Assembly (NCBI RefSeq): GCF_016786325.1
Contig: NZ_JADWYU010000082.1
Location: 12,428-76,427 of the forward strand
Length of the DNA stretch: 64,000 nucleotides
Direction of reading: 5' to 3'
From: Frankia nepalensis
Lineage (GTDB): Bacteria; Actinomycetota; Actinomycetes; Frankiales; Frankiaceae
Every line of letters begins with the position of its first letter. Position 1 is the stretch's first letter. Shown in pieces: positions 3,090 to 20,283 of the stretch. The notes under the pieces are model-generated. The model was not told the DNA's origin and did not search any database. It saw only the letters and a program-made list of their open reading frames with translations. Position numbers and translations under genes: made by a program.

Positions 3090-4832
3090 ATGCCGGGTTC
3101 GATGCCGAACTCCGAGTCGTCCCACCTCGACGACGAGCCGGTAGTGATCACGGAGACTCCCGAATGGGCGGCGCTGCGCGGGCATCAGAAGCACCTGGCC
3201 GGCACCAGCCTGCGCGCGCTGTTCGCCGCTGACCCCGGCCGGGCCGAGGCCCTGTCCGCCGAGGCCGACGGGCTGTACCTGGACTACTCGAAGAACCTGC
3301 TGACCGCCGAGACCGTCCGGCTGCTGATCGCGCTCGCCGAGCGCGCCGGCCTGGCCGCGCGGATCGAGGCGATGTTCAACGGCGAGAAGATCAACACCAC
3401 CGAGCGCCGGGCCGTGCTGCACGTCGCGCTGCGGGCCCCCGAGGGCGAGCCCGTCCTGGTCGACGGCGGGGACGGCGTGCCCGTGGACGTCGTGCCCGAG
3501 GTGCACAGGGTGCTGGCGAAGATGTACGCCTTCGCCGACCGGGTCCGCTCCGGCGTGTGGACCGGCGCGACCGGCCAGCACATCCGAACCGTCGTGAACA
3601 TCGGCATCGGCGGTTCCGACCTTGGCCCCGCGATGGCCGCCGAGGCGCTGCGGACGTTCGCCGACCGGTCGATCGACTCCCGGTTCGTGTCCAACGTGGA
3701 CGGCTCGGACATCTGGGAGGCGACCCACGACCTGGACCCGGCCCGGACGCTGTTCATCGTCTCCTCGAAGACGTTCACGACGCTGGAGACGATCGCCAAC
3801 GCGAAGGCGGCCCGTCACTGGCTGGTCGCCGCCCTCGGCGAACAGGCCGTCCCGCATCACTTCGTGGCCGTCTCGACGAACGCCCAGAAGGTCGCCGAGT
3901 TCGGGATCGACACGGCGAACATGTTCGAGTTCTGGGACTGGGTCGGCGGCCGGTACTCGATGGACTCGGCGATCGGGCTCTCGCTGGCGGTCGCCATCGG
4001 GCCTGACAACTTCCGGAATCTGCTCGCCGGCTTCCACGCGATGGACGCACATTTCCGCACCGCGCCGCTGGACCGCAACCTCCCGGTCCTGCTCGGGCTG
4101 ATCGGCCTGTGGTACCGGGACTTCTTCGGCCTGCAGACGCACGCCGTGCTGCCGTACAGCCACTACCTGAGCCGCTTCCCGGCCTACCTGCAGCAGCTGG
4201 ACATGGAGAGCAACGGCAAGTCGGTGGACCGCGCCGGCCGGCCGGTGACGACCGCCACCGGGCCGATCGTGTGGGGCACCCCGGGCACCAACGGCCAGCA
4301 CGCGTACTACCAGTTGCTGCACCAGGGGACGACGGTCATCCCCGCCGACTTCATCGGCTTCGTCGCGCCGCCGCACGCCGCAGTCGGCGGTACGGGGGCC
4401 GCCGACCAGCATGTGCTGCTGATGGCGAACTTCTTCGCCCAGACCGAGGCGCTGGCGTTCGGGAAGACCGCCGAGGAGGTCGCGGCCGAAGGGGTCGCGC
4501 CCGAGTTGGTGCCGCACAAGGTCTTCACGGGCGACCGGCCGACGAACACCCTGCTCGCCCCGGAGCTGAGCCCGTTCATCCTTGGTCAGCTGATCGCGCT
4601 CTATGAGCACAAGGTCTTCACGCAGGGCACGATCTGGGGGATCAACAGCTTCGATCAGTGGGGCGTCGAGCTGGGCAAGGTGCTCGCCGGCCGGATCATC
4701 CCCGAGCTCGCCGCCGCGGACGAGCCGGAGCTCGGGCACGACGCCTCGACGAACGCCCTCATTCGTCGCTTCCGCGCCGGCTTCGGGACCGGCTCCGGAG
4801 CCATCGCCCCGGCGGGGGCGAGTCTGGCGTGA
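3090..4832 (+). CDS. pgi: Glucose-6-phosphate isomerase
   Basis: Interconverts glucose 6-phosphate and fructose 6-phosphate in the cytosol (glycolysis and gluconeogenesis). The 580-aa length is normal for the long bacterial form. Visible motifs: the sugar-phosphate-binding [10 protein letters not shown], first family signature around [13 protein letters not shown], catalytic-region MESNGKSV, and C-terminal signature [20 protein letters not shown] purine-rich ribosome site (GGAAGGGCGG) precedes ATG 3090; ATG 3102 is an in-frame alternative. It stands alone between a divergent kinase and a downstream STAS gene about 115 bases away. Identity is certain at family level. Confidence 0.97.
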
Positions 4833-8476: not shown

Positions 8477-9646
8477 TCAGCTTCCGGAGCAGGTGACGTT
8501 GGACAGGCCCTTGGCGGCGCCGGTCACCTGGTTGTCGCATCCGACGACATTGCCGGTCTCGTCGGCCTTGTGGATGTAGACACCGAAGCCCTCACCGTTC
8601 ACGGTCAGGGTGTTGGCGCGGATGATGTTCTTGCGGCCCCAGCCGTCCTCGACCACGTGAGTCTGGATGCCGTCCGTGACGGTGCCGCCGTCCTGGGTGC
8701 CGACGTTCTTCTCCACCAGCCAGCCGTTGCCCTTGACGTCGATCCAGGAGTCGGTGGCGACCATCGCGTCGCCGCTGAGCTTGTTGCCGCTGACGATCCC
8801 GCCCTCGGTTCCTTCCTTGATGTCGATGTTCTCCGAGGTCGTACCGGCGATGTCGTTGCCGATCACCGAGTTGCGGTCGCTGCGGTCGGGCTCGCAGTTG
8901 GTGTACTCGCACCAGTTGCTGGTGGCGCTGCCGATGTAGATGCCCTCGCCGAACTTCTCGGACCGGTTGCCGGTGTCGCGGATGACGTTCCCGACGACCA
9001 GGTTGTCGCTGCTGCCGGTGCGCAGGTGGATCGCCTCGTCCCCGGTGGCGCTGACGTGCAGCGAGGCGATGACCGAGTGGTTGACGGAGTCGGCCATGAC
9101 GCCCTTTTGGCCGTTACGCACGCTGAAGCCGACCACTCGCACCCAGGACACCTTCTCCAGGTGCAGGAGGTACTTGGCGTCGTCCTCGCCGTCGATGACG
9201 GCCTCCGGAGTGCCGCATACCCAGATCGGGCTCGGCTCCGTTCCCGACTTTGTGATCTTGAAATCGCCGGTGTAGCGACCCGGAGCCATCCGGATGATGT
9301 CTCCCGGTTCCGCCGCCGCCAGGGCGGCGGTCAGGTCGCCGGCGTTGCGCACGGTGATGCCGCCACCCTCCGGGCACGTGACCTGGCCCCCGGCCGGGGC
9401 GACCGGGCCGGAGCCGGCGGCTCCGGTGCTCGTGTCGCCGCCGCCCGACCCCCCCAGGGCATCCGGGTTCAGGGAGGCCGGCGGGATCGAGGCGAACTCG
9501 ATCGGTTCGTCGTCACCTCCGCCACAGGCGCCGGCGGTGAGCGCGATGGCGGCGAACAGGGCGGCCATCCGCCCGCGGCCGGCGCGGGCCCCGGTGGACG
9601 GTGGACTGGGCGGCGTGCGCCATGACGACGTGGACACGCCGTTCAC
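8477..9646 (-). CDS. Secreted beta-helix lipoprotein, polysaccharide lyase-like
   Basis: A 389-aa lipoprotein. The signal peptide ends in the lipobox LTAGAC, giving a lipid-anchored extracellular protein. The mature part is a right-handed parallel beta-helix: the early motif PGDIIRMAPGRYTGDFKI is the first coil typical of PL6-like and pectate-lyase-like proteins, followed by many GI/NV-type coils and two Cys pairs. The start is GTG 9646, six bases after a perfect AAGGAG; the frame opens at 9676. The likely role is binding, cleaving or remodelling an acidic polysaccharide, inferred from fold and neighbours (HAS-like synthase, Ugd, PL14-like lyase). Catalytic residues cannot be assigned by eye. 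Confidence 0.75.
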   Translation of the reverse strand: MNGVSTSSWRTPPSPPSTGARAGRGRMAALFAAIALTAGACGGGDDEPIEFASIPPASLNPDALGGSGGGDTSTGAAGSGPVAPAGGQVTCPEGGGITVRNAGDLTAALAAAEPGDIIRMAPGRYTGDFKITKSGTEPSPIWVCGTPEAVIDGEDDAKYLLHLEKVSWVRVVGFSVRNGQKGVMADSVNHSVIASLHVSATGDEAIHLRTGSSDNLVVGNVIRDTGNRSEKFGEGIYIGSATSNWCEYTNCEPDRSDRNSVIGNDIAGTTSENIDIKEGTEGGIVSGNKLSGDAMVATDSWIDVKGNGWLVEKNVGTQDGGTVTDGIQTHVVEDGWGRKNIIRANTLTVNGEGFGVYIHKADETGNVVGCDNQVTGAAKGLSNVTCSGS

Positions 9647-9710
9647 ATGGATCTCCTTGATCTCCTTGTCTTTCACCGAGACGGCTCCACGACCGCCAGG
9701 GCCGTGCCCC

Positions 9711-11792
9711 CTACGAGGTAGGGGGCTGGCTGTTTTCCTGGTGGCCGTCGTGCCCGCCGCGCCGCGGACGCGGGGCGGACGGAGCCTCGCGCGGCGAGAA
9801 GAAGTCCGACGAGCCGGACGTCCTGGGCGGTGTCAGCCAGGCCGTGGTCTCGTGGTCCTGGACCCGCCCGGCGGGGCCGCCTCGCCGGATCAGCTCGGTC
9901 GGCTCGGCATCCTGCCGTGGCACGGTCGGCTTGGTCCGCGTCGAGGGCTGTCGCCGCGGTGCTGCCTCCGCGAAGACCGACGACCCGTGGGACGGCCCGG
10001 TGCCGGCAGCGGTGAGCTTCTTGCCGGCGCCGTTTCCGGCGGACCTCGATGGGCTGGCCCCGGCGCCGTTCGCCGAGGCGGCGATCAGTGCCAGCTGGGC
10101 CGGCGGCCGCATGGTCCCGCCGGTCAGCCGCTGGAGCAGCAGCTCCGCCTCCGGGTAGGGGTGCTGCCTGGGCGCCTTCTTCGCCTTTCGGCGGCTGCGC
10201 CAGCCCAGGAGTGGCAACAGCACCAGGACGCCCCAGACCAGCAGCGCCGGGTGCTCCTCGATCAGCGAGTACCAGTGGTTGGCCTCGAGGCTGACCCAGC
10301 CGTCGGTGTTGTTGCTGTGGATCTCGCGGGTCTTCACGCCGAGGGCCTTGCGGATGTCGATCGCTCGCCAGCCCTCGCCAGAGAGCTTGTTGTGCTGGAT
10401 CTTGGTGTCGTCCGCCTGGCCGCGCACGGTGATCGCGAAGTCGGAGGCACCGGTCACCGTGTTGCGGCTGACGACGTTGGTCGTGGCGCCCTGGATCACA
10501 ATGCCGCGCCTGTCGTCGGTCAGGGTGTTCTGTACCAGCGCGGTGCGCCGGGCGTCCGGGCCGATCTGGATGCCGGCCTCCGTCGCCGCGATAGCCGTGT
10601 TGCCCTCGATCTGGGTGCCGTTCGCGCCGCTCTTGATGATGATGCCGACGGTGCTACCCGTGACCTTGTTGGCCCGCAGGACGCTGTTCTCGCCGCCGAC
10701 CACGCGGATGCCGTAGCGGCCGTTGCCGCTGACCGTGTTGCCCTCGAGCAGGGTGTCCTTGATCTGGTGTACCTGGACGCCCGTCGCGGTCGCGACCAGA
10801 CCGAGCCCGCGGCCGTCCACCGTGATGCCGTCACCGGAGTTGTCGGTGACCGTGCTCCGCATGACCCGCGAGCCCGAGGCACGGTCGATGGTGATGCCGT
10901 CGCCATGGTTGCGGGTGGACGTGATGCCGGAGACGAGCGTGGTGGTGGCGTCCCGGTTGACGGACAGGCCAGAGCGCTCGTTGTCCTCCAGCCGGACACC
11001 GATCATCTGGATGCCCTCGCTGCCGGAGACGTAGGCACCGAAGACGTTCTGGGAGAACACGGAGTCGGCGGCGCCGCCGGTGCTGGGCTCGCCCTTGCTT
11101 CCGGTCCAGGCGATCCCGCCGGTGCGTCCGGTCCAGAACCCGAGGTTGGTCGCCTTGACGTTGCGGACGATGAGCTCGCCACCCATCGTCCGGATGTAGG
11201 ACCGTCCGTCGGCGGTCGCCGTGTCGGGCCGGAGGTTCTGGACGTCCCAGCCGACGATGGACAGCTTCTTCTCCGGCGAGTCGCCGAAGAACTCCATGGC
11301 ACCGCGCCAGGCGGTGACCGTCGCGTAGCCGCTCGCCCCACTGGCCAGCCGGAGCTCGCCGACCTGCCCGTTGATCACGAGCCGGGCCTGGGGACCGACG
11401 AGCACGTGCGCCGTGAACAGCACGCCGCCGTCCACCTCGCGGCGGCCGCCGCCGGCGGCGACCACGTCCGTGGCGGTGTACGGCTGCGCCCGGGCGGGCA
11501 GCAGCAGGGTCGGCAGGCTGCCGGCCGTCTCGACGATCGTCGGTTCGGTGAGCACCCCGAAGCGCTCGTACATGGTGCGCAGCCGGATGTCCTCCGCGTC
11601 CACCAGCGTCGACTGCTTCTTCGCGTCGGCCGAGCTGGCAGGCGGCAGTGGCGGGACGGGGTCGGCGTGGGCCGGGGTGACGGTGGTCGCGATCGTGGTC
11701 GCGGCGAGCGCCGCCACCATGGTCGCCAGGAGCAGGCCAGCCCGCGCCGCCACCCGTCGGGGTGAGCGTCGCGCCTGGGACGGCCGGGTCAT
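9711..11792 (-). CDS. Membrane-anchored parallel beta-helix protein (NosD/epimerase-like fold)
   Basis: A 693-aa protein with an N-terminal signal peptide (cleavage near TPAHA-DP), a long beta-helix built from NTVTG-like coils (about 130-490), one C-terminal membrane segment (about 512-533, LLVWGVLVLLPLLGW) with a basic stop-transfer stretch, then a Pro/Ser-rich cytoplasmic tail. The fold is that of NosD/CASH proteins and of AlgG-type C5-epimerases; the DPHD active-site motif of AlgG was not found, so catalysis is uncertain. Its ATG shares four bases (ATGA) with the stop of the HAS-like synthase, so the two are translationally coupled, which implies a joint role in making or modifying the polymer at the membrane. 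Confidence 0.8.
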   Translation of the reverse strand: MTRPSQARRSPRRVAARAGLLLATMVAALAATTIATTVTPAHADPVPPLPPASSADAKKQSTLVDAEDIRLRTMYERFGVLTEPTIVETAGSLPTLLLPARAQPYTATDVVAAGGGRREVDGGVLFTAHVLVGPQARLVINGQVGELRLASGASGYATVTAWRGAMEFFGDSPEKKLSIVGWDVQNLRPDTATADGRSYIRTMGGELIVRNVKATNLGFWTGRTGGIAWTGSKGEPSTGGAADSVFSQNVFGAYVSGSEGIQMIGVRLEDNERSGLSVNRDATTTLVSGITSTRNHGDGITIDRASGSRVMRSTVTDNSGDGITVDGRGLGLVATATGVQVHQIKDTLLEGNTVSGNGRYGIRVVGGENSVLRANKVTGSTVGIIIKSGANGTQIEGNTAIAATEAGIQIGPDARRTALVQNTLTDDRRGIVIQGATTNVVSRNTVTGASDFAITVRGQADDTKIQHNKLSGEGWRAIDIRKALGVKTREIHSNNTDGWVSLEANHWYSLIEEHPALLVWGVLVLLPLLGWRSRRKAKKAPRQHPYPEAELLLQRLTGGTMRPPAQLALIAASANGAGASPSRSAGNGAGKKLTAAGTGPSHGSSVFAEAAPRRQPSTRTKPTVPRQDAEPTELIRRGGPAGRVQDHETTAWLTPPRTSGSSDFFSPREAPSAPRPRRGGHDGHQENSQPPTS

Positions 11793-13051
11793 CGGGCACC
11801 CGCCGGCGCCGGGGCGGACGGGCCGCTGGTCCTCGTGGAGGCGTCGCTCTGGCCCTCGCCGCCGATGAGGTCGGCGCGCCTGGTCAGCCAGCCCTGCTTG
11901 TTCATCGACACGAGCGCCCAGGCCTTGATCGGTAGCGCGACGACGATGATCATGAGGACGGTGAGCGGAAGGACGAAGATGTCCCGCGGATGCTCCTTGA
12001 GATGCGACATGCCTCGGATGGCGCGACCGAGGAGCAGCCAGACGATCGCGATGATCGGCGCGTTGGCCTCGGGACGCATCATCCACAGCGCGAAGTAGGT
12101 CATCGCGATGCCCATGGTCACCGGGGTGAGCACGATCTGCAGCACGCCGACCTGGGTGATCAGTGGCTGGCGCCACAGCCAGCCCTTGTAGATCGCGGTG
12201 AGGTAGGTGCGGTAGGAGTTCCGGCTCCAGCGGACGCGCTGCTTGATGAAGGCCCGCAGGCTGTCCGGGAACATCGACATCGCGCGGGCCGTGTCCTGGT
12301 GCACCGTCTTGTAGCCGGAGGCCAGCACCAGCCAGGTGAGCCGGCCGTCGTCGCCGGCGATGCAGCGGCGGCCGAGGAAGAACTCGTGCTCCAGGTTGTG
12401 CAGGACGGGCAGCACCGCGGAGCGGCGGTACGCCGCGGTCCGCCCGGACAGGCAGGCGACCGCGCCGGCCCGGCCCTGGGCCGGCACGTAGTCGAGGTAG
12501 CGGATGTCCACCAGCCAGTTGGCGACTCGCCGCCAGACGCTGGTGCGCGGCTCGTAGACGTTCTGGCGGGTGCCGACGCCGCCGACCTCCGGGTCGACGA
12601 ACGGCATCTGGACCGCCGCCAGCAGGCCGGGCTCCCACGCCGTGTCGGAGTCACACAGCACGATGACGTCGTAGCGTGCCGCCGAGATCCCGACGCCGAG
12701 CGCGGAGCGCTTGCCCTCGTGCACGAATGGGATGACGGTCACAGTCGGGTCGGCGCGCCGGGCGAGCCGCTCGATCAGCTCGGTGTCTTCCACGTCGGGG
12801 ACGATGATGATCTCTGTCGGCTCCTGGGCCAGCCAGGTCTTCAGGCAGCGCTCCAGGACGTCGGGGTCCTCGCGAAAGGAGGGCACGATCACCGAGGTTG
12901 TTGTGCGGAAGTTGTTTCGTACCGGCCGGTATCTGGTGGAAAGAAGCCGGCGTGTGAGCCATACCACCCACGAGACGACGCCCGCGATGCCGATCGGTAT
13001 AAGACTTCGGTGGCTCGAGATGAAGTCGACCGCGGCGCTGAGCCATTGCAT
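11789..13051 (-). CDS. Hyaluronan-synthase-like family 2 glycosyltransferase
   Basis: Processive membrane GT2 of 420 aa, the size of streptococcal HasA. Order: N-terminal membrane segment (about 15-35), catalytic domain with HEGKRSA (111-117), DSD at 134-136, GDD at 233-235 and QRVRW at 271-275, then three or so C-terminal membrane segments (about 300-385). The region from VDIRYLDYV to the FLG and GDD motifs, and the C-terminal HP-x-x-IFVLPL block, follow HasA/NodC order rather than cellulose synthase; no PilZ domain. I start at ATG 13051 (MQWLSAAVDF) with a G-run upstream; ATG 13081 and a GTG at 13192 are possible. Product is likely a beta-linked polymer containing glucuronate, given ugd across the promoter region. 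Confidence 0.85.
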   Translation of the reverse strand: MQWLSAAVDFISSHRSLIPIGIAGVVSWVVWLTRRLLSTRYRPVRNNFRTTTSVIVPSFREDPDVLERCLKTWLAQEPTEIIIVPDVEDTELIERLARRADPTVTVIPFVHEGKRSALGVGISAARYDVIVLCDSDTAWEPGLLAAVQMPFVDPEVGGVGTRQNVYEPRTSVWRRVANWLVDIRYLDYVPAQGRAGAVACLSGRTAAYRRSAVLPVLHNLEHEFFLGRRCIAGDDGRLTWLVLASGYKTVHQDTARAMSMFPDSLRAFIKQRVRWSRNSYRTYLTAIYKGWLWRQPLITQVGVLQIVLTPVTMGIAMTYFALWMMRPEANAPIIAIVWLLLGRAIRGMSHLKEHPRDIFVLPLTVLMIIVVALPIKAWALVSMNKQGWLTRRADLIGGEGQSDASTRTSGPSAPAPAGAR

Positions 13052-13573
13052 TGTCGCTTGGACCCCCCCAGTGCGACTCATGAGTCGAAAGAGCCGCACG
13101 GACCGGATGACCTCCGCCCCGAGGCCTTCTAATCTCGATCCAGATCGTTCTGGCTCTATGGCGGGCGATCGACCGTGATCACCCGCAGGCAACAGTCAGG
13201 CTAGCAGTGGCCACAGTGTGCGCCATCGGCGGGTCAATCCACTCTGCGTGTATGTCTCATCACTGTCGATGCCGATGCGCCACTGATGGACACGTCGCTG
13301 TGTACACGATCAATCACTGTTGGCGTTGGCGATAATGGTGCCATTCCTTGGTGCTATGCGGGTACCGGCGGACCGCGTGGCTCGGTACTAGCACTTCGTC
13401 ACCTTCTGGAAACATCGTTGACGCGAACCGTACGCCTGGGAAAGGCCGGTGTCTCGCCCGCCGGACGCGTTTGCCACTATTGCTAGACCTGCCCCGGGCC
13501 TGCCATCCGGGGAGAGAGTGACGTCACTGGACCAGTCGGGGGACTGGTTTCGCGCGAGTGGGGGGACGCGGTA
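13052..13573. promoter_or_regulatory. Divergent promoter region between HAS-like synthase and ugd
   Basis: A 522-base control region separating the synthase/beta-helix genes from ugd and the lyase gene. It is less GC-rich than its surroundings. The 8-mer ATCACTGT occurs twice (13259-13266 and 13313-13320, 54 bases apart), with a related CCACTGATGG between. These could be operator half-sites for a regulator of the whole locus. No regulator gene is adjacent. Confidence 0.4.
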
Positions 13574-14950
13574 GTGGTTTCTGACAGTGTGTCCGATTTG
13601 GTGGAGCCGTCGGCGGCTGCCGGGACGGTCAACAAGATCAGCGTGGTAGGCACCGGCTACCTCGGGGCCACCCACGCGGTGTGCATGAGCGAGCTGGGCT
13701 TCACCGTGGTGGGCCTGGACGTCGACGAGGCCAAGGTGGCCAGCCTCGGCGCCGGTGTCGTGCCCTTCTTCGAGCCGGGCCTCGAGGAGCTGCTGCGCAA
13801 GAACCTCGAGTCCGGCCGGCTGTCCTTCAGCACGTCGTTCGCCGACGCCGCCGACGCCGACGCGCACTTCCTGTGCGTGGGCACGCCGCAGCGCGCCGAC
13901 TCGCCGGCAGCCGACCTCAGCTACCTCGACAGCGCGATGGACCAGCTGCTGGCGGCCGGCCTCAAGCCGGGTGCCCTGGTCATCGGCAAGTCCACGGTGC
14001 CCGCGGGCACGGCCGCCCGGCTCGCCGCCCGGCTCGCCGCCGAGGCCCCGCACGCCGGCCTCGCCTGGAACCCGGAGTTCCTGCGGGAGGGCTTCGCGGT
14101 CGAGGACACCCTGCGGCCCGACCGGCTGGTCTTCGGGCTGCCGGCGGCCGACGGCGGGGTCGCGGAGGCCGTCCTGCGCACGGTGTACAGCCAGGCGCTC
14201 GAGGCCGGTACCCCGCTGGTCGTCGCCGACTACGCCACCGCCGAGCTGGTGAAGGTCGCGGCGAACTCCTTCCTCGCCACCAAGATCTCGTTCATCAACG
14301 CCATGGCCGAGGTGTGCGAGGTGGCCGGCGCGGACGTCACGACCCTGGCGAAGGCGCTCTCCTACGACACCCGGATCGGCGGCCGGTTCCTCGGCGCCGG
14401 GGTCGGCTTCGGCGGCGGCTGCCTGCCCAAGGACATCCGGGCCTTCCAGGCCAGGGCCCGGGAGCTGGACGCGGGACACTCCGTCGCCTTCCTCGCCGAG
14501 GTCGACGCGATCAACCTTCGCCGTCGGGCGCGGGTGGTGGAGCTGGCGACCGAGTTGGTCGGCGGCGACGTGCGAGGCAAGCGGGTGGCCGTGTTCGGCG
14601 CCGCCTTCAAGCCGAACAGCGACGACATCCGCGACTCACCGGCGCTTGACGTCGCCCGTGCGTTGCACGCCGCGGGCGCCATCGTGACGGTGTGCGACCC
14701 GGCCGCGATCCCGAACGCGGAGCGCCGCTATCCCGAGCTGAGGTACGACCTCAACGCCGTCGAGGCGGCGCGGGACGCCGACGTGGTGCTGCACCTGACC
14801 GAATGGGCGGAGTTCCGCGAGGTGGATCCGGAGCTGGTCGCGTCCGTGACGCGCAACCCGGTCATCATCGACGGCCGCAACACCCTTGACCCAGTGCGGT
14901 GGCGACAGGCGGGTTGGACTTACCACGCGCTCGGCCGCCCGAACGTGTGA
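13574..14950 (+). CDS. ugd: UDP-glucose 6-dehydrogenase
   Basis: Oxidises UDP-glucose to UDP-glucuronate with two NAD+. A 458-aa member of the UDP-glucose/GDP-mannose dehydrogenase family: N-terminal NAD-binding fold with GTGYLGATHA (near 26-35), central WNPEFLREG motif, active-site Cys in GGGCLPKDI, and a C-terminal UDP-binding domain starting near GKRVAVFGAAFKPNSDD. The GTG 13574 start has a G-rich ribosome site. Seventeen bases downstream the lyase gene begins, so the pair is co-transcribed, divergent from the HAS-like synthase. UDP-glucuronate is the expected donor for that synthase, as HasB serves HasA. GDP-mannose cannot be excluded from sequence alone, but motifs fit the UDP-glucose branch. 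Confidence 0.92.
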   Translation: MVSDSVSDLVEPSAAAGTVNKISVVGTGYLGATHAVCMSELGFTVVGLDVDEAKVASLGAGVVPFFEPGLEELLRKNLESGRLSFSTSFADAADADAHFLCVGTPQRADSPAADLSYLDSAMDQLLAAGLKPGALVIGKSTVPAGTAARLAARLAAEAPHAGLAWNPEFLREGFAVEDTLRPDRLVFGLPAADGGVAEAVLRTVYSQALEAGTPLVVADYATAELVKVAANSFLATKISFINAMAEVCEVAGADVTTLAKALSYDTRIGGRFLGAGVGFGGGCLPKDIRAFQARARELDAGHSVAFLAEVDAINLRRRARVVELATELVGGDVRGKRVAVFGAAFKPNSDDIRDSPALDVARALHAAGAIVTVCDPAAIPNAERRYPELRYDLNAVEAARDADVVLHLTEWAEFREVDPELVASVTRNPVIIDGRNTLDPVRWRQAGWTYHALGRPNV

Positions 14951-14967
14951 GGCCTGGAGCACCAGGC

Positions 14968-15933
14968 ATGAGTGGTGAGACGAGCCGGCGGGCGCTGCTG
15001 CGCTCGTCGGCGCTCGGTGTGCTGGGGCTGGCGGGGGCCAGCCTCGGCGGCGGCCTGCTGACCGGCTGCGGGTCGGACGCGAAGCCGTTCGACCCGGCGA
15101 GCGAGATGCTGCCACCGGACACGGCGACGCCGGCGCCCGCGGCGACGACCGCCGCGAAACGCCGCACGCTCGCCGACCCGGCGGTGGCCAAGGAGTTCTT
15201 CGGCGAGAAGCTGGTACCTACGACCCGGGCGAGCTACGGCCTCGACCAGGCCGAGGTGCTGCCGTCCGACGATCCCCGCTTCCCCACCTTCCTCCGGGTA
15301 TCCATCCCGGTCGACGTGACGAACCCGCAGGAAGCGCGGATCTACCAGGACGGACCGACGTACGGCGGCGTGCAGATGTTCGTCGATCACACCCTTCGCT
15401 CGCCGTACGAGCTGTACTTCCGCTATTACCTTCGGTTCCCGGAGAACTTCGACTTCGGCAACGGTGGGCGTCTGCCAGGCTTCTTCGGGACGATCGTCAA
15501 GAACCGGCAGCGCACGGAGACGCTCCGTGCTGGCTTTGCCACGCGGTTTGCCTGGCGGGACGGCGACATGGGGCTCGTGTACGCGAACACGGCCCGTCCC
15601 GACCATCCGGTCAACACCGTGGGCAAGGGGATCTGGCGCTGGCCGCGAGGCAGGTGGATCTGCGTTGAACAGGGGGTGAAGCTGAACTTCGAGGGATACG
15701 CCAACGGGCTGATGCTGATCTGGATCGACGGCCAGCTGGTGTACAAGGACCAGCAGTTCAACCCCCGGATCTCCAATGACCTACGGGTCGGTGGATTTCT
15801 GGTGAACGCGACGTTCGGCGATGGCGGGGCCTCGTTCAAGCCGCCGTCACCGCAGACGATCGACCTGGCGGGGTTCGTCTACGACACGACTCGCCTCAAC
15901 CCGCTCCCGAAACCCGAGTCGACCGCCGGCTGA
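14968..15933 (+). CDS. Tat-exported lipoprotein with PL14-like polysaccharide lyase domain
   Basis: A 321-aa protein. The signal has twin arginines (TSRRALLR) and a lipobox LLTGC, so it should be exported folded and lipid-anchored. The main domain (about 75-310) has the hallmark YYLRFPENFDFGNGGRLPG of family 14 alginate/glucuronan lyases (usual form GGKLPG), and the late block FLVNATFGDGGASF that matches the family's C-terminal beta-sandwich strand. The start ATG 14968 follows GGAG at 8 bases. Members of PL14 cut beta-1,4-linked mannuronan or glucuronan by elimination. Here it probably releases, trims or turns over the polymer made by the adjacent genes. Lys in the signature is replaced by Arg, so activity should be tested. 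Confidence 0.75.
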   Translation: MSGETSRRALLRSSALGVLGLAGASLGGGLLTGCGSDAKPFDPASEMLPPDTATPAPAATTAAKRRTLADPAVAKEFFGEKLVPTTRASYGLDQAEVLPSDDPRFPTFLRVSIPVDVTNPQEARIYQDGPTYGGVQMFVDHTLRSPYELYFRYYLRFPENFDFGNGGRLPGFFGTIVKNRQRTETLRAGFATRFAWRDGDMGLVYANTARPDHPVNTVGKGIWRWPRGRWICVEQGVKLNFEGYANGLMLIWIDGQLVYKDQQFNPRISNDLRVGGFLVNATFGDGGASFKPPSPQTIDLAGFVYDTTRLNPLPKPESTAG

Positions 15934-16024: not shown

Positions 16025-19000
16025 TCAGATCTCCGGCGGCATGATGATCGTGGTGTCCGGGCCATCGTCGTCCAGGCGGTCGAACGCGCGGGTGGCCAGC
16101 GCCGCCGCGGTGACGTTGCCCTTGCGGTGGTAACGCTCCAGCGCCGCCGCGAGGCTCTCGGCCGCGTCGTCCTTGCGGCCGCGCCGGTGCAGCACCTCGG
16201 CGCGGGCGAGCAGCGCGGCCGCCTGGCCGTCGAGGTCGTCGGTCTTGCCGGCTAGCTCCACCGCGGTCTCGGCGAACCGCAGCGCCTCGTTGTCGCGGCC
16301 GCGGATCGCCAGCAGGCGGGCGTGCACCCCGCACCAGCCGGCCTGCGCCGGCAGTTGGTCGCCCGCCGCCGCGTCGCGGCAGCGGGTCACGTACTTGCCG
16401 GCGTCGTCGAGCCGGCCGAGCGCCAGCATCACCTCGGCCAACGCCGCCGCCCTGGTGGCCAGGAAGACCTTCTCGCCCATCTTGGACAGGTGCCGGCAGC
16501 TTTTGAGCAGCTCCCGCTCGGCGGTCGCCAGGTCGTCGCCGAGCACCGCCACCCTGGCGACCACGAACCCGCTGTGCAGCGGGTCGAAGCGCGGGCCGCT
16601 CAGGTCCCAGACGATCTCCTCGGCGTCCTTGAGGTGAGTTCTGGCCGCCTCCAGGTCGCCGCCCATCGCGGTCAGCACGGCCAGCTGGGCGAGCAGCGCG
16701 CGGCGCTGGCCGCGGTCGTCACCCGCCTCGGCGAGCGCGGCCAGCGCCAGTGAGATCGACTCCTCCACCGGGCGCGGGGTCCAGCTCAGCAGACTGACCA
16801 GCTCGCGGCGCAGCGACTGCGAGGCCCGTGGCACCCCGGAGTCCTCGGCGTGCTGGACGGCGAGGCGCATCGCCTTCTCCGCCGCCGTGAACTGGCCGGC
16901 GGCGATGTAGGCCGAGGCCCGGCTGCGGGCCGCGAGCGCCGCGCCGACCTCGTCGCCCTCGTGGACAAAGGCGGCCAGCGCCTGCCCGGCCTCCTCGAGG
17001 GTGACGGCGACCAGCCCCTCGGGCTCGGTGGCGAACTGCACCCGCAGGTGCGCGAGCCGGGCGTGCGCCCGCAGCCCCTCCTCGCCCCCGCGCCGGGCCC
17101 GCTCCGTGACCTGGCGCAGGATCCGGTCGGCGTCGGAGAGCCGGCCGAACGAGTACAGCGCCCAGCCCAGGTCGATCTCGGCCCGCAGCCGCAGGGGGTC
17201 GAGCTCGGGCAGCAGCACGATCGCCCGCTTGAGCAGCTGGGCCGCGCCCATCTCGTCGCCCTGGCGGACGCGGTCGGCCGCCTCGATCAGGCAGCTCGCG
17301 GCCTGCCGGCCGAGCTCCACGGTGGTCGCGTCGCGCTGGCCGAGCTCGACGCGGTAGCGGTAGGCCTGCTCCAGGTGGTATCCGACCAGTTCGTCGTGCT
17401 CGCCCGGCCCGCCGAGCATCCGGGCCTGCAGCCAGCGGGCGAACCGCTCGTGCAGGTCCGCGCGCTGCCGCTTGGACGTCGCCTGGTAGGCGCAGTCGCG
17501 CAGCAGCACATGCAGGAACCGGAACGCCTCGACGCCGGGCAGGTCGGAGCGGTCCGGGTGGACCAGTTCCTTGCGCACCAGGGCCAGGCAGTGCGAGGCG
17601 ACGTGTGGGCGCTCCTCCGGGTCGGACAGGTCGACGACGGCGTCCAGGTAGAACCGGCCGCCGACCACCGCGGCCCGCTCCAGCACCCGGCGCTCGGCGG
17701 CGTCGAGCCGGTCGAGCCGGGCGGCGAGCAGCGCGGAGATCGACGGGGGGACCTTGACGTCGCGCAGGTTGCCGGTGGCCGTCCAGCCGTTGCCGTCCCG
17801 GCGCAGCAGGCCGTCGTCGACCAACGCGGCGACCATCTGCTCGACGAACAGCGGGTTGCCGGCCGCCGACGAGGTGATCCGGTCGATCAGCGCTGGGGGG
17901 ACGTCGTCCGAGCCCATCAAACTGCGGATCAGCCGCTGGCAGCGTTCGTCGGTGAGCGGCTGCAGCAGCATCGAGGTCGCGTTGAGCTTGCCCCCGCCCC
18001 ACTGCCGCCGCTCCTCGAGCAGATCGGGGCGGGTCAGGCACAGCAGCAGGATCGGCGCGTCGCGCGACCAGTCGGTGATGTGCTCGATCAGGTCGAGCAG
18101 CGTCGGCTCGGCCCAGTGCACGTCGTCGAAGCACAGCACCAGCGGGCGGCGCTCGGCGAGCGCCTGGAAGAGGGTGCGCACCGCCCAGAAACTCTCCTGG
18201 GTGCCCACCTCGGCGCCGCCGAGGCCGACCAGCGGAGCGAGCGCGGCCACCACCTCGGTCGCCCCCGCCACCCCGAGTTCGTCGAGCAGTTCGCGCAGCC
18301 GGCGCCGCCCTTCCAGGGCGGGCGAGTCGGCCGACATGCCGGTCGCCTGGCGCACCATCTCCATCAGCGGCCAGTAGGCGATGCCCTCGCCGTAGGACAG
18401 GCAGCGCCCGGACAGCACCGTCGCCCGGTTGGCGACGCCGTCGCAGAACTCCTTGACCATCCGTGACTTCCCGATGCCGGCCGGGCCGAGCACGGTGAAC
18501 AGGTGGCAGATGCGTTCCTCAACGACCGCCTCGAAGGCGTCCTGGATGCGGCGGCGCTCCCGGTTGCGGCCGATGACCGGCGCGGCGAGCGAAAGCGACG
18601 GCGTCCGGCTGCCAGGGCCGGCGGAGGGGTCCACCAGCCCGATCAACCGGTGTGCCCGCAGCGGATCGCGCTTGCCCTGCACCACCAGCGGGGGGATGGT
18701 GTCGACGGTGACGCTGTGCCGGATCATCCGGTAGGTGCTGTCGCCGATCAGGATCTCGTCCGGCGCGGCGGCCTCCTCGAGCCGCGAGGCGACGTTGACC
18801 GCGTCTCCGGTGACGGTGCCGCCGGCCACGGCGACCTCGCCGGTGTTGATGCCGGTCCGGATCCGCAGGGTCAGCCCCCACTCACGCCGCAGCTCGTCGT
18901 TGAGCCGCCCCATCGCGACCCGGATGTCGAACGCGGCTCGCACGGCGCGCAGGGCGTCATCCTCGTGGACGACCGGGATCCCGAAGACCCCGAACACGGC

Positions 19001-19258
19001 ATCACCGATGAACTTCTCGACGCTGCCGCCGTGCCTCTTGATGACGCCGCTGACGGTCGAGAAGAACCGCCACTTGACCTGCTGCAGCGGCTCGGAGTCG
19101 ATGCTCTCGCCGATGTTGGTCCAGCCGGCGATGTCGATGAACATGATCGTGACCGTCTTGCGGGTCCCGGTGCGGCCGGTGGGCAGGGGGTTCCCGCAGT
19201 TGGAGCAGAACCGGGCCTGGTCCGGGTTCTGCTCCTTACATACCGGGCACCGCACCAT
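16025..19258 (-). CDS. Zinc-ribbon / class III nucleotide cyclase / AAA ATPase / TPR protein
   Basis: A 1077-aa cytoplasmic signalling protein. It opens with a four-Cys zinc ribbon (CPVCKEQNPDQARFCSNCG). The cyclase domain (about 30-215) keeps the metal Asp in FIDIAGWT, the Lys and second Asp in EKFIGDAVFG, and the Asn/Arg of DAVNVASRLE, so it looks catalytically competent. Next comes a STAND-type ATPase with Walker A GPAGIGKSRM and Walker B LVLCFDDVHWAE, then a long helical TPR-like region. ATG 19258 (MVRCPVC) is the only start that keeps the ribbon tidy. This architecture is common in actinobacteria; it likely turns a signal sensed by the TPR/ATPase part into cAMP. Targets are unknown. Confidence 0.88.
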   Translation of the reverse strand: MVRCPVCKEQNPDQARFCSNCGNPLPTGRTGTRKTVTIMFIDIAGWTNIGESIDSEPLQQVKWRFFSTVSGVIKRHGGSVEKFIGDAVFGVFGIPVVHEDDALRAVRAAFDIRVAMGRLNDELRREWGLTLRIRTGINTGEVAVAGGTVTGDAVNVASRLEEAAAPDEILIGDSTYRMIRHSVTVDTIPPLVVQGKRDPLRAHRLIGLVDPSAGPGSRTPSLSLAAPVIGRNRERRRIQDAFEAVVEERICHLFTVLGPAGIGKSRMVKEFCDGVANRATVLSGRCLSYGEGIAYWPLMEMVRQATGMSADSPALEGRRRLRELLDELGVAGATEVVAALAPLVGLGGAEVGTQESFWAVRTLFQALAERRPLVLCFDDVHWAEPTLLDLIEHITDWSRDAPILLLCLTRPDLLEERRQWGGGKLNATSMLLQPLTDERCQRLIRSLMGSDDVPPALIDRITSSAAGNPLFVEQMVAALVDDGLLRRDGNGWTATGNLRDVKVPPSISALLAARLDRLDAAERRVLERAAVVGGRFYLDAVVDLSDPEERPHVASHCLALVRKELVHPDRSDLPGVEAFRFLHVLLRDCAYQATSKRQRADLHERFARWLQARMLGGPGEHDELVGYHLEQAYRYRVELGQRDATTVELGRQAASCLIEAADRVRQGDEMGAAQLLKRAIVLLPELDPLRLRAEIDLGWALYSFGRLSDADRILRQVTERARRGGEEGLRAHARLAHLRVQFATEPEGLVAVTLEEAGQALAAFVHEGDEVGAALAARSRASAYIAAGQFTAAEKAMRLAVQHAEDSGVPRASQSLRRELVSLLSWTPRPVEESISLALAALAEAGDDRGQRRALLAQLAVLTAMGGDLEAARTHLKDAEEIVWDLSGPRFDPLHSGFVVARVAVLGDDLATAERELLKSCRHLSKMGEKVFLATRAAALAEVMLALGRLDDAGKYVTRCRDAAAGDQLPAQAGWCGVHARLLAIRGRDNEALRFAETAVELAGKTDDLDGQAAALLARAEVLHRRGRKDDAAESLAAALERYHRKGNVTAAALATRAFDRLDDDGPDTTIIMPPEI

Positions 19259-19362
19259 GTGCCGGATGTTAGGCCGATCAGGCGGTCCGGTGGCAGGGGA
19301 TCTCGGTATCCCGCCTCCGCGCCGTGACTCGTGCCACACCGACTCCGCCGAGCGGGCGACAT

Positions 19363-19390
19363 CCCCCGACCGGGGATCCCGGGTCGGGGG
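19363..19390. terminator. Terminator hairpin after the ABC exporter genes
   Basis: Inverted repeat CCCCCGACC (19363-19371) and GGTCGGGGG (19382-19390), perfect over 9 bp, lying just past the stop of the leftward permease gene. Confidence 0.55.
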
Positions 19391-19416
19391 ACCCCCGGAG
19401 TCGCGCGACCGCCCGC

Positions 19417-20283
19417 TCATCCGGGCAGGTCCCGGCGCAGGGCCACGAACGCGGCGGCCGTCGCGACCAGCGCCGAGGCGACGGCCGCCCAGAAGGACAG
19501 AAGGTCAAGCTCCGAGGTTGGCCAGCCGAGCACCCCGAGCGCGCTGGTGACCGGGCCGCGAAACCGGGTGTCGTCCCCGACGAGCTCTCCAAGCCCCACG
19601 CCGAGCAGAGTGAACAGGGCGGCGCTGGAGCCGCGGGCGATCGAGCCGGCGGCCACCCCGACGACGCCCGCGGCGCAGACGGTGACGGCGACGACCGCGA
19701 ACGCCACGGCGAGATCGCCGGGCCGGTCGAGGCGCATGGCCGCCGCGTCGTGGCGGACGGCGCCCGCCACGACCCAGGCGGTGAACGTGAGAGCGGACAG
19801 CGCGACGCCGAGCGCGACGGTGGCGAGCAGCTGCGCGCCGAGCACCCGGTGCCGGGCCGGAGTCACGAGCCAGGTCAGCGTCGCGGTGCGCCAGCGGAAC
19901 TCGCCCGCCGCGACCTGGACGCCGAGCGCCATCAGCAGGTAGCCGAGCAGCAGCCCGGACCGGGCACGCAGCCCGTTCCAGGTGGCCTCGGGCAGCGCGC
20001 CCGCGCCCCAGAACCCCAGCATCGGGATCTGCAGGAGCAGGAAGAGCGCGACGGCGCCCCGCTGGCCGCGGTTGGTGGAGATCTTGAAGAACTCGGTCCG
20101 GACCAGCGTGCCGAGGCCGGCGGGCCTGGGAGGCGGGGCGGGAACAGGCGGGCGGCCGCGGGTCCGGCGCCGCACGCGCACCGTGCTCCGGGCCTCCCCG
20201 CGGCGCGCCGAGGCTCCCGCCTGATCGGCGGCCGTCGCCCCGGCCCGCGGCGTGAACCGGCCGCCGGGCCCGCTGGTCGTCAT
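19417..20283 (-). CDS. ABC-2 type transporter permease
   Basis: A 288-aa membrane protein with a charged Pro/Arg-rich N terminus (about 60 residues) and six hydrophobic segments beginning near VALFLLLQIPMLGFWGAGAL. The motif VRTEFFKISTNRGQ ahead of the first segment is typical of ABC-2 permeases with the adjacent type of ATPase. It overlaps the ATPase gene by four bases (19417-20283 versus 20280-21320), so both form one exporter. The substrate is unknown; such pairs export drugs, peptides or lipids. Confidence 0.85.
   Translation of the reverse strand: MTTSGPGGRFTPRAGATAADQAGASARRGEARSTVRVRRRTRGRPPVPAPPPRPAGLGTLVRTEFFKISTNRGQRGAVALFLLLQIPMLGFWGAGALPEATWNGLRARSGLLLGYLLMALGVQVAAGEFRWRTATLTWLVTPARHRVLGAQLLATVALGVALSALTFTAWVVAGAVRHDAAAMRLDRPGDLAVAFAVVAVTVCAAGVVGVAAGSIARGSSAALFTLLGVGLGELVGDDTRFRGPVTSALGVLGWPTSELDLLSFWAAVASALVATAAAFVALRRDLPG

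Follow-up and report, generated by a model that had tools for sequence, protein, structure and literature searches.

A Predicted Synthase-Dependent Locus for a Glucuronate-Containing Surface Polysaccharide in Frankiaceae and Other Actinobacteria

Introduction

Synthase-dependent production of polyuronates is known from alginate in Gram-negative bacteria and, with hexosamine in the chain, from hyaluronan. In the hasA-hasB pair the gene for UDP-glucose dehydrogenase (UGD) is linked to that of the synthase, and in the alginate system AlgL cuts the polymer to set its length or to release stuck chains. Lyases of families PL31 and PL14 are best known for acting on mannuronate, not on glucuronate.

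In the accessible part of a survey of synthase-dependent operons, alginate operons are largely those of Pseudomonas together with atypical environmental forms, and no actinobacterial set of the kind described below is given (PMC7112194). PL41 homologues are present in Streptomyces, for which no alginate pathway is known (PMC11468063). An actinobacterial origin of the brown-algal alginate genes has been proposed, as cited in PMC8307928.

The window analysed here is a stretch of 64,000 nucleotides from Frankia nepalensis, whose genome of 10.7 Mb shares its GTDB genus with Pseudofrankia asymbiotica and Pseudofrankia sp. BMG5.36. We read five of its genes as a synthase-dependent locus with which a Gram-positive makes a surface polysaccharide that contains glucuronate; the locus resembles an alginate operon but is based on UDP-glucuronate, and we give this reading a probability of about 0.62. 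No description of glucuronan synthase genes or of an actinobacterial alginate-like locus was found in the open-access literature, most subscription journals being outside the scope of the search; within that limit we agree with an earlier note on this DNA, which knew of no described system of such make-up. The actinobacterial gene block, which in a Gram-positive setting looks like an equivalent of the alginate operon, is apparently undescribed.

Results

Gene Layout

Five open reading frames, here called A to E, were all present at 8477-15933 of the window and placed as the earlier note had placed them:

A, 8477-9676, minus strand: predicted PL31-like polyuronate lyase; surface lipoprotein in Frankiaceae, with a lipobox or N-terminal membrane anchor in relatives
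B, 9711-11792, minus strand: right-handed beta-helix protein of AlgG fold that has a signal sequence and, at the C-terminal end, a transmembrane helix and a disordered cytoplasmic tail rich in basic residues
C, 11789 to about 13051, minus strand: processive family-2 membrane glycosyltransferase (polymer synthase) of hyaluronan synthase (HAS) architecture
D, 13574-14950, plus strand: UDP-glucose 6-dehydrogenase (UDP-glucuronate supply)
E, 14968-15933, plus strand: PL14-like lyase, Tat-type lipoprotein, Frankiaceae accessory

Pfam matches in the five genes were GT2, UDPG_MGDP_dh, Beta_helix/NosD and Polysacc_lyase_14. D and E are oriented divergently to C-B-A, and the arrangement is conserved in relatives, which excludes chance as the source of the adjacency. 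The stop codon of C and the ATG of B overlap as ATGA, and B ends in a transmembrane helix, so that the coupling of B to C and its membrane anchoring, both proposed earlier, were seen again. On the A side lie genes for a glucose-6-phosphate isomerase (3090-4832) and a Ser/Thr kinase with NHL repeats (34-2952), neither of which recurs in relatives; a signalling protein with zinc-ribbon, adenylate cyclase, AAA and TPR parts adjoins E (16025-19420).

Conservation of the Locus

Within Frankiaceae, A was searched against 35 genomes of the order, and 20 kb were then read around each match. The order A-B-C<>D-E was found in 11 other Frankiaceae genomes from three genera, with frequent start/stop overlaps for C/B, B/A and D/E, and one further genome (L043) is rearranged so that E adjoins A. 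In the same survey of 35 genomes the five-gene cluster was absent from the large g2 genus of Frankiaceae. In Protofrankia (L111) a gene-poor stretch separates D from E, and no convincing gene was seen in it. Two observations concern single genomes. The UGD gene of Candidatus Frankia californiensis Dd1 is fragmented (L108:8591-9642), the locus possibly decaying or the assembly being at fault. A genome of the window's own genus that lacks the main cluster (G029) encodes a divergent GT2 and, some 2 kb downstream of it, a beta-helix protein (L100:8951-13479), a possible replacement polysaccharide locus.

For the class, synthase C was searched against 394 genomes, a strong orthologue being defined by E < 1e-160. 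Such orthologues occurred in 15 genomes of other families, with B accompanying C in 15/15 and A adjacent in 14/15. A scan of named genomes with C reduced 253 relatives to 80 loci, and counts were restricted to loci with enough flank. Although these loci had been chosen by C alone, B stood next to C in 76/76, A came directly after B in 68/68 and D was present in 59 of 68; the remaining 9 of 68 had no D nearby. Carriers of C-B-A, with or without D, included Pseudofrankia, Parafrankia, Protofrankia, Streptomyces, Pseudonocardia, Modestobacter, Actinoplanes, Kribbella, Actinomadura, Curtobacterium, Nocardioides, Demequina and others. Actinobacteria of soil and plants keep the block, Frankia relatives among them. 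E was confined to Frankiaceae among the named loci. The earlier expectation that five genes are kept together across actinobacteria therefore holds for C-B-A and mostly for D, but not for the PL14 gene E, which is a Frankiaceae accessory outside the widely conserved core.

Some genera, among them Microbispora, Actinomadura and Actinoallomurus, carry a duplicated B, and related but more distant C-B-A or C-B sets exist outside the class (L199, L200, L202). A single-sequence search of the phylum with B was insensitive (4/396) and was left out of the frequencies. Beyond C-B-A-D, no neighbour recurred within 10 kb in more than three genera when transporter, acetylase, c-di-GMP and glycosidase genes were sought, the widest being an MFS gene in three genera. 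Equivalents of Alg44, AlgK, AlgX and AlgE likewise did not recur within 10 kb of the loci, which matches the earlier description of a system without PilZ/Alg44 or outer-membrane parts. The Curtobacterium plasmid pTCL carries another synthase-dependent uronate-type locus (L051:9941-14512), in which a related GT2 is followed by a GH26-like glycosidase and a UGD with overlapping ends.

UDP-Glucose Dehydrogenase D

D matched the UGD 4a7p at E 5e-99 (335 bits) versus 1.5e-47 (166 bits) for the GDP-mannose dehydrogenase AlgD (1mfz), and among specific models the TuaD and AglM UGD models scored best, which supports the assigned role in UDP-glucuronate supply. The dehydrogenases of two other loci (L123 and L116) are likewise closer to UGD than to GDP-mannose dehydrogenase. 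The UGD subtype differs by lineage, being of PRK15057 type in L095 (622 bits) and of TuaD type, far from the Frankia D profile, in L123 and L155; no GDP-mannose dehydrogenase (AlgD) occupied this slot in any locus examined, only UGD types. The recruitment of distinct UGDs to one and the same locus is the best argument for UDP-glucuronate as the substrate, and UDP-glucuronate is probably the building block. Since two more close UGD paralogues exist in the same genome (76% and 65%), D is not the sole possible source of it.

Synthase C

C has a GT2 Pfam match and matches the HAS profile at 4.5e-28, and DSD, GDD and QxxRW are invariant in its relatives. The structure nearest to its AF2 model was CvHAS (Z 33.1 over 360 residues), hyaluronan synthases scoring 30-33. 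Membership of the cellulose or chitin synthases was tried and rejected, with structural Z of 24 and 25, respectively, versus 33 for HAS. The CvHAS residues around UDP-GlcA, His174, Lys177, Arg341, Trp342 and Arg348 (PMC12987647), correspond to H111, K114, R274, W275 and R281 of C, all invariant; because several of them are general to processive GT2 enzymes, they do not prove that C uses GlcA. The acceptor-site Arg303 and priming-loop Tyr299 of CvHAS (PMC12987647) are not kept, being Gly and Ala in C.

By sequence score C is nearer to NodC (157-158 bits) than to HAS (74-101 bits), and its profile is similar to those of the GlcNAc synthases NodC and PgaC. Since NodC makes a GlcNAc polymer, GlcNAc could be a co-substrate. 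The best NCBIfam model was NodC TIGR04242, but at 136 bits against a cut-off of 550 it was not met. In a tree, which took in no Alg8 or brown-algal sequences, C and its relatives formed their own clade with HAS and NodC outside (support 100/98), the HAS rows being fragments on long branches. The earlier label of a HasA-like processive GT2 is borne out by the architecture, while by sequence C belongs to neither the HAS nor the NodC clade. A grouping with chitin/NodC or cellulose enzymes, which together with the lack of a uronic-acid polymer had been named as a refutation, finds some support in the NodC scores, but tree and structure place C apart. No close paralogue of C was found in its own genome.

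Beta-Helix Protein B

The single-sequence similarity of B to AlgG is weak. A profile of the B family nevertheless matched AlgG (4ozy) at E 1.6e-15, followed by the AlgE epimerases, and the AF2 model (pLDDT 89.5) aligned best to AlgG (Z 37.0, rmsd 2.2 A, 342 residues), with AlgE6 at 32.9 and others at <=30; Foldseek concurs. A transmembrane helix and then basic residues are added in the C-terminal part. The fold agrees with the surface modification proposed for B, although the modifying activity itself is inferred.

The catalytic motif is less well kept than the fold. AlgG has DPHD, which is not met in the window copy (SVNRD), and the family mostly reads xxHR; YG(F/L)DPH is kept only in the distant members L094, L101 and L202. 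The position of AlgG His319 is His in 87/91 relatives, Gln in Candidatus Frankia californiensis (L108) and Asn279 in the window, possibly a loss of activity or a sequencing error, so that the window copy may be inactive. AlgG Arg345, which we take to be the carboxylate-neutralising residue, aligns with R304 of B and is Arg in 81/91. The AlgG equivalog model NF038177 was not met (22 bits vs a cut-off of 700), and B, lacking the DPHD motif, was not filed as AlgG. B is inferred to act at the same site in the pathway as AlgG, and it may or may not epimerise the chain.

Lyases A and E

A matched PsAly, the Paenibacillus alginate lyase 6kfn, at phmmer E 2.1e-37 over 270 residues. PsAly prefers polymannuronate and has catalytic Tyr184 and Lys221, a cation site of Glu181, Glu216 and Asp219 and further active-site residues (PMC6796002). 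All 13 of its functional residues that were checked are present in A (K191, H217, R219, E244, Y247, E282, D285, K287, D309, D313, K315, Q338 and H340), with Tyr184 and Lys221 corresponding to Y247 and K287 and the cation ligands to E244, E282 and D285. Each of the 13 is kept in 75-77 of 77 aligned A proteins, and every complete locus has a uronate lyase with intact active site. The lipobox Cys of A is invariant in Frankiaceae; in relatives the N-terminus carries either a lipobox or a hydrophobic anchor. What had been called a second beta-helix lipoprotein is indeed a lipoprotein, but it is more than a beta-helix: judged by its sequence, A is a PL31-type lyase related to alginate lyases, its polyuronate lyase activity being inferred from the family. 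A search of the same genome with PF14099 (Polysacc_lyase) gave no match. Further PL31-like proteins with 39-51% identity are encoded there on contigs C221, C118 and C66 (L019, L028); no other cluster genes lie near the one on C221 (L046).

E met the Pfam family PF21294 at E 2.5e-25 (89.9 bits vs a curated cut-off of 27) and matched the alginate lyase 5gmt at E 3e-5. The GGRLPG motif, together with the RR leader and the lipobox Cys C34, which are kept in relatives, bears out its earlier description as a Tat lipoprotein with the PL14 GG(K/R)LPG signature. GGKLPG itself, in which the Lys presumably has a catalytic role, is not met: the position is Arg in the window and in 6/10 relatives, and Lys in 4/10. 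A genome from another family of the class (G210, L099:5957-11749) has a parallel logic, with a dehydrogenase, a divergent HAS/NodC-like GT2, a beta-helix protein with C-terminal transmembrane helix, a PL14 protein and a nucleotidyltransferase; there PL14 is the only lyase, and its motif reads GGKLPG. PL14, GT2 and beta-helix genes stand together again in L201, so the pairing arose or persisted outside Frankiaceae.

Discussion

Proposed Mechanism

We observed the gene content, the linkage and synteny, the folds and the conserved active sites of A, C and D, and from these a pathway can be inferred. D would convert UDP-glucose to UDP-glucuronate, which C would polymerise, most likely to beta-(1-4)-glucuronan, and extrude through its own membrane channel in the manner of HAS. 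B, translationally coupled to C, would take the emerging chain on an AlgG-like cleft at the outer face of the membrane and modify it, by C5-epimerisation in the family at large; the window copy, with His changed to Asn, perhaps only guides the chain. Surface-tethered lyases, the PL31 enzyme A and in Frankiaceae the PL14 enzyme E as well, would then cut by beta-elimination, setting chain length or freeing stuck chains. Families, folds and synteny all agree with the earlier proposal of supply, synthesis, modification and trimming in a Gram-positive analogue of alginate or glucuronan assembly, and the composition of the polymer is unproved. The identity and linkage of the polymer, the activity of B and the biological role are inferences; weaker ones are a (1-4)-glucuronan as the polymer, iduronate formation by the B family and a role of the product as matrix, capsule or hyphal surface.

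Several points were counted against the preferred reading. The polymer itself has not been observed, and mannuronate, not glucuronate, is the substrate for which PL31 and PL14 are best known. Nine loci with enough flank are without D, the window B lacks both the catalytic His and DPHD, and the GGKLPG Lys of 5gmt is Arg in E. The higher NodC scores of C and the two further UGD paralogues were counted against it as well.

Alternative Polymers

The alternative that survives best, although we consider it unlikely, is an alternating polymer of glucuronate and N-acetylhexosamine, like hyaluronan or heparosan, for which C would use UDP-GlcA and UDP-GlcNAc, with the uronate residues as the target of B and the lyases. 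It would account for HAS as the nearest solved structure of C, UDP-GlcA-binding positions included, for the profile similarity to NodC and PgaC and for a UGD linkage like that of hasA-hasB. It is weakened by the separate clade of C, apart from both HAS and NodC, by the Gly and Ala in place of CvHAS Arg303 and Tyr299, and by what is known of the other enzymes: contiguous (1-4)-linked uronate is what the characterised members of PL31 and PL14 cleave, and relatives of B act on polymannuronate.

A true alginate (polymannuronate) system in actinobacteria is very improbable. An AlgG-like B, a lyase A related to a polymannuronate-preferring enzyme (PMC6796002), the PL14 protein E and the epimerase DPH motif of L094, L101 and L202 would fit it, as would the actinobacterial source proposed for brown-algal alginate genes (as cited in PMC8307928), but every lineage tested has a UGD in place of a GDP-mannose dehydrogenase, C is nearer to HAS/NodC than to synthases of cellulose type, and Alg44, AlgK, AlgX and AlgE have no recurrent equivalents. 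We give equally little credit to a NodC-type locus for a chitin- or PNAG-like exopolysaccharide or oligosaccharide, with the UGD serving other pathways nearby, as its support, NodC as the best NCBIfam model of C, lies far under the cut-off, no deacetylase or acyltransferase recurs, and a uronate lyase with intact active site is in every complete locus.

Significance

Under the preferred reading of a UDP-glucuronate-based locus, the B family might be of AlgG ancestry and epimerise glucuronyl units at C5 in the polymer, turning nascent glucuronan into a mixed glucuronate/iduronate homopolymer. This proposal is speculative, and we doubt it more than we credit it. If it were true, the locus would be a UDP-glucuronate-based alginate analogue, AlgG-type machinery would be older and wider than alginate, and the result would bear on the disputed actinobacterial origin of the brown-algal alginate genes. 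The locus itself offers a concrete candidate pathway of a related kind. Present in Streptomyces, Frankia relatives, Actinoplanes and many others, a conserved Gram-positive set of AlgG-fold protein, PL31 lyase and UGD would mean that a major surface polymer of actinobacteria has gone unrecognised. Actinobacterial PL31 'alginate lyases' are perhaps enzymes for a self-made polymer, not algal degraders.

Comparison With Known Systems

The alginate operon of Pseudomonas and Azotobacter (Alg8, AlgG, AlgL, AlgD) also joins a processive GT2, an outer-face AlgG-fold beta-helix protein, a lyase and a nucleotide-sugar dehydrogenase in one locus. In contrast, the actinobacterial locus has UGD in place of GDP-mannose dehydrogenase, a GT2 of HAS/NodC type, PL31 (and PL14) in place of the PL5 AlgL, and a membrane-anchored B without DPHD, and it is without PilZ/Alg44, acetylation and outer-membrane parts. 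Streptococcal hasA-hasB, likewise Gram-positive, has UGD next to a synthase of HAS architecture, whereas C falls in a separate GT2 clade and the has operons have neither an AlgG-like protein nor lyases. NodC, the chitooligosaccharide synthase, is about 30% identical to C in the catalytic domain, but C stays far below the family cut-off and has no nodA or nodB nearby. Compared with the PL14 lyases (5GMT; PF21294), E scores above the family cut-off but has, in this genus, Arg for Lys in GGKLPG, together with a lipobox tether and an adjacent synthase. Finally, A keeps the 13 checked functional residues of the Paenibacillus lyase PsAly (6KFN, PMC6796002), but unlike that enzyme it is surface-anchored and lies inside a synthesis locus.
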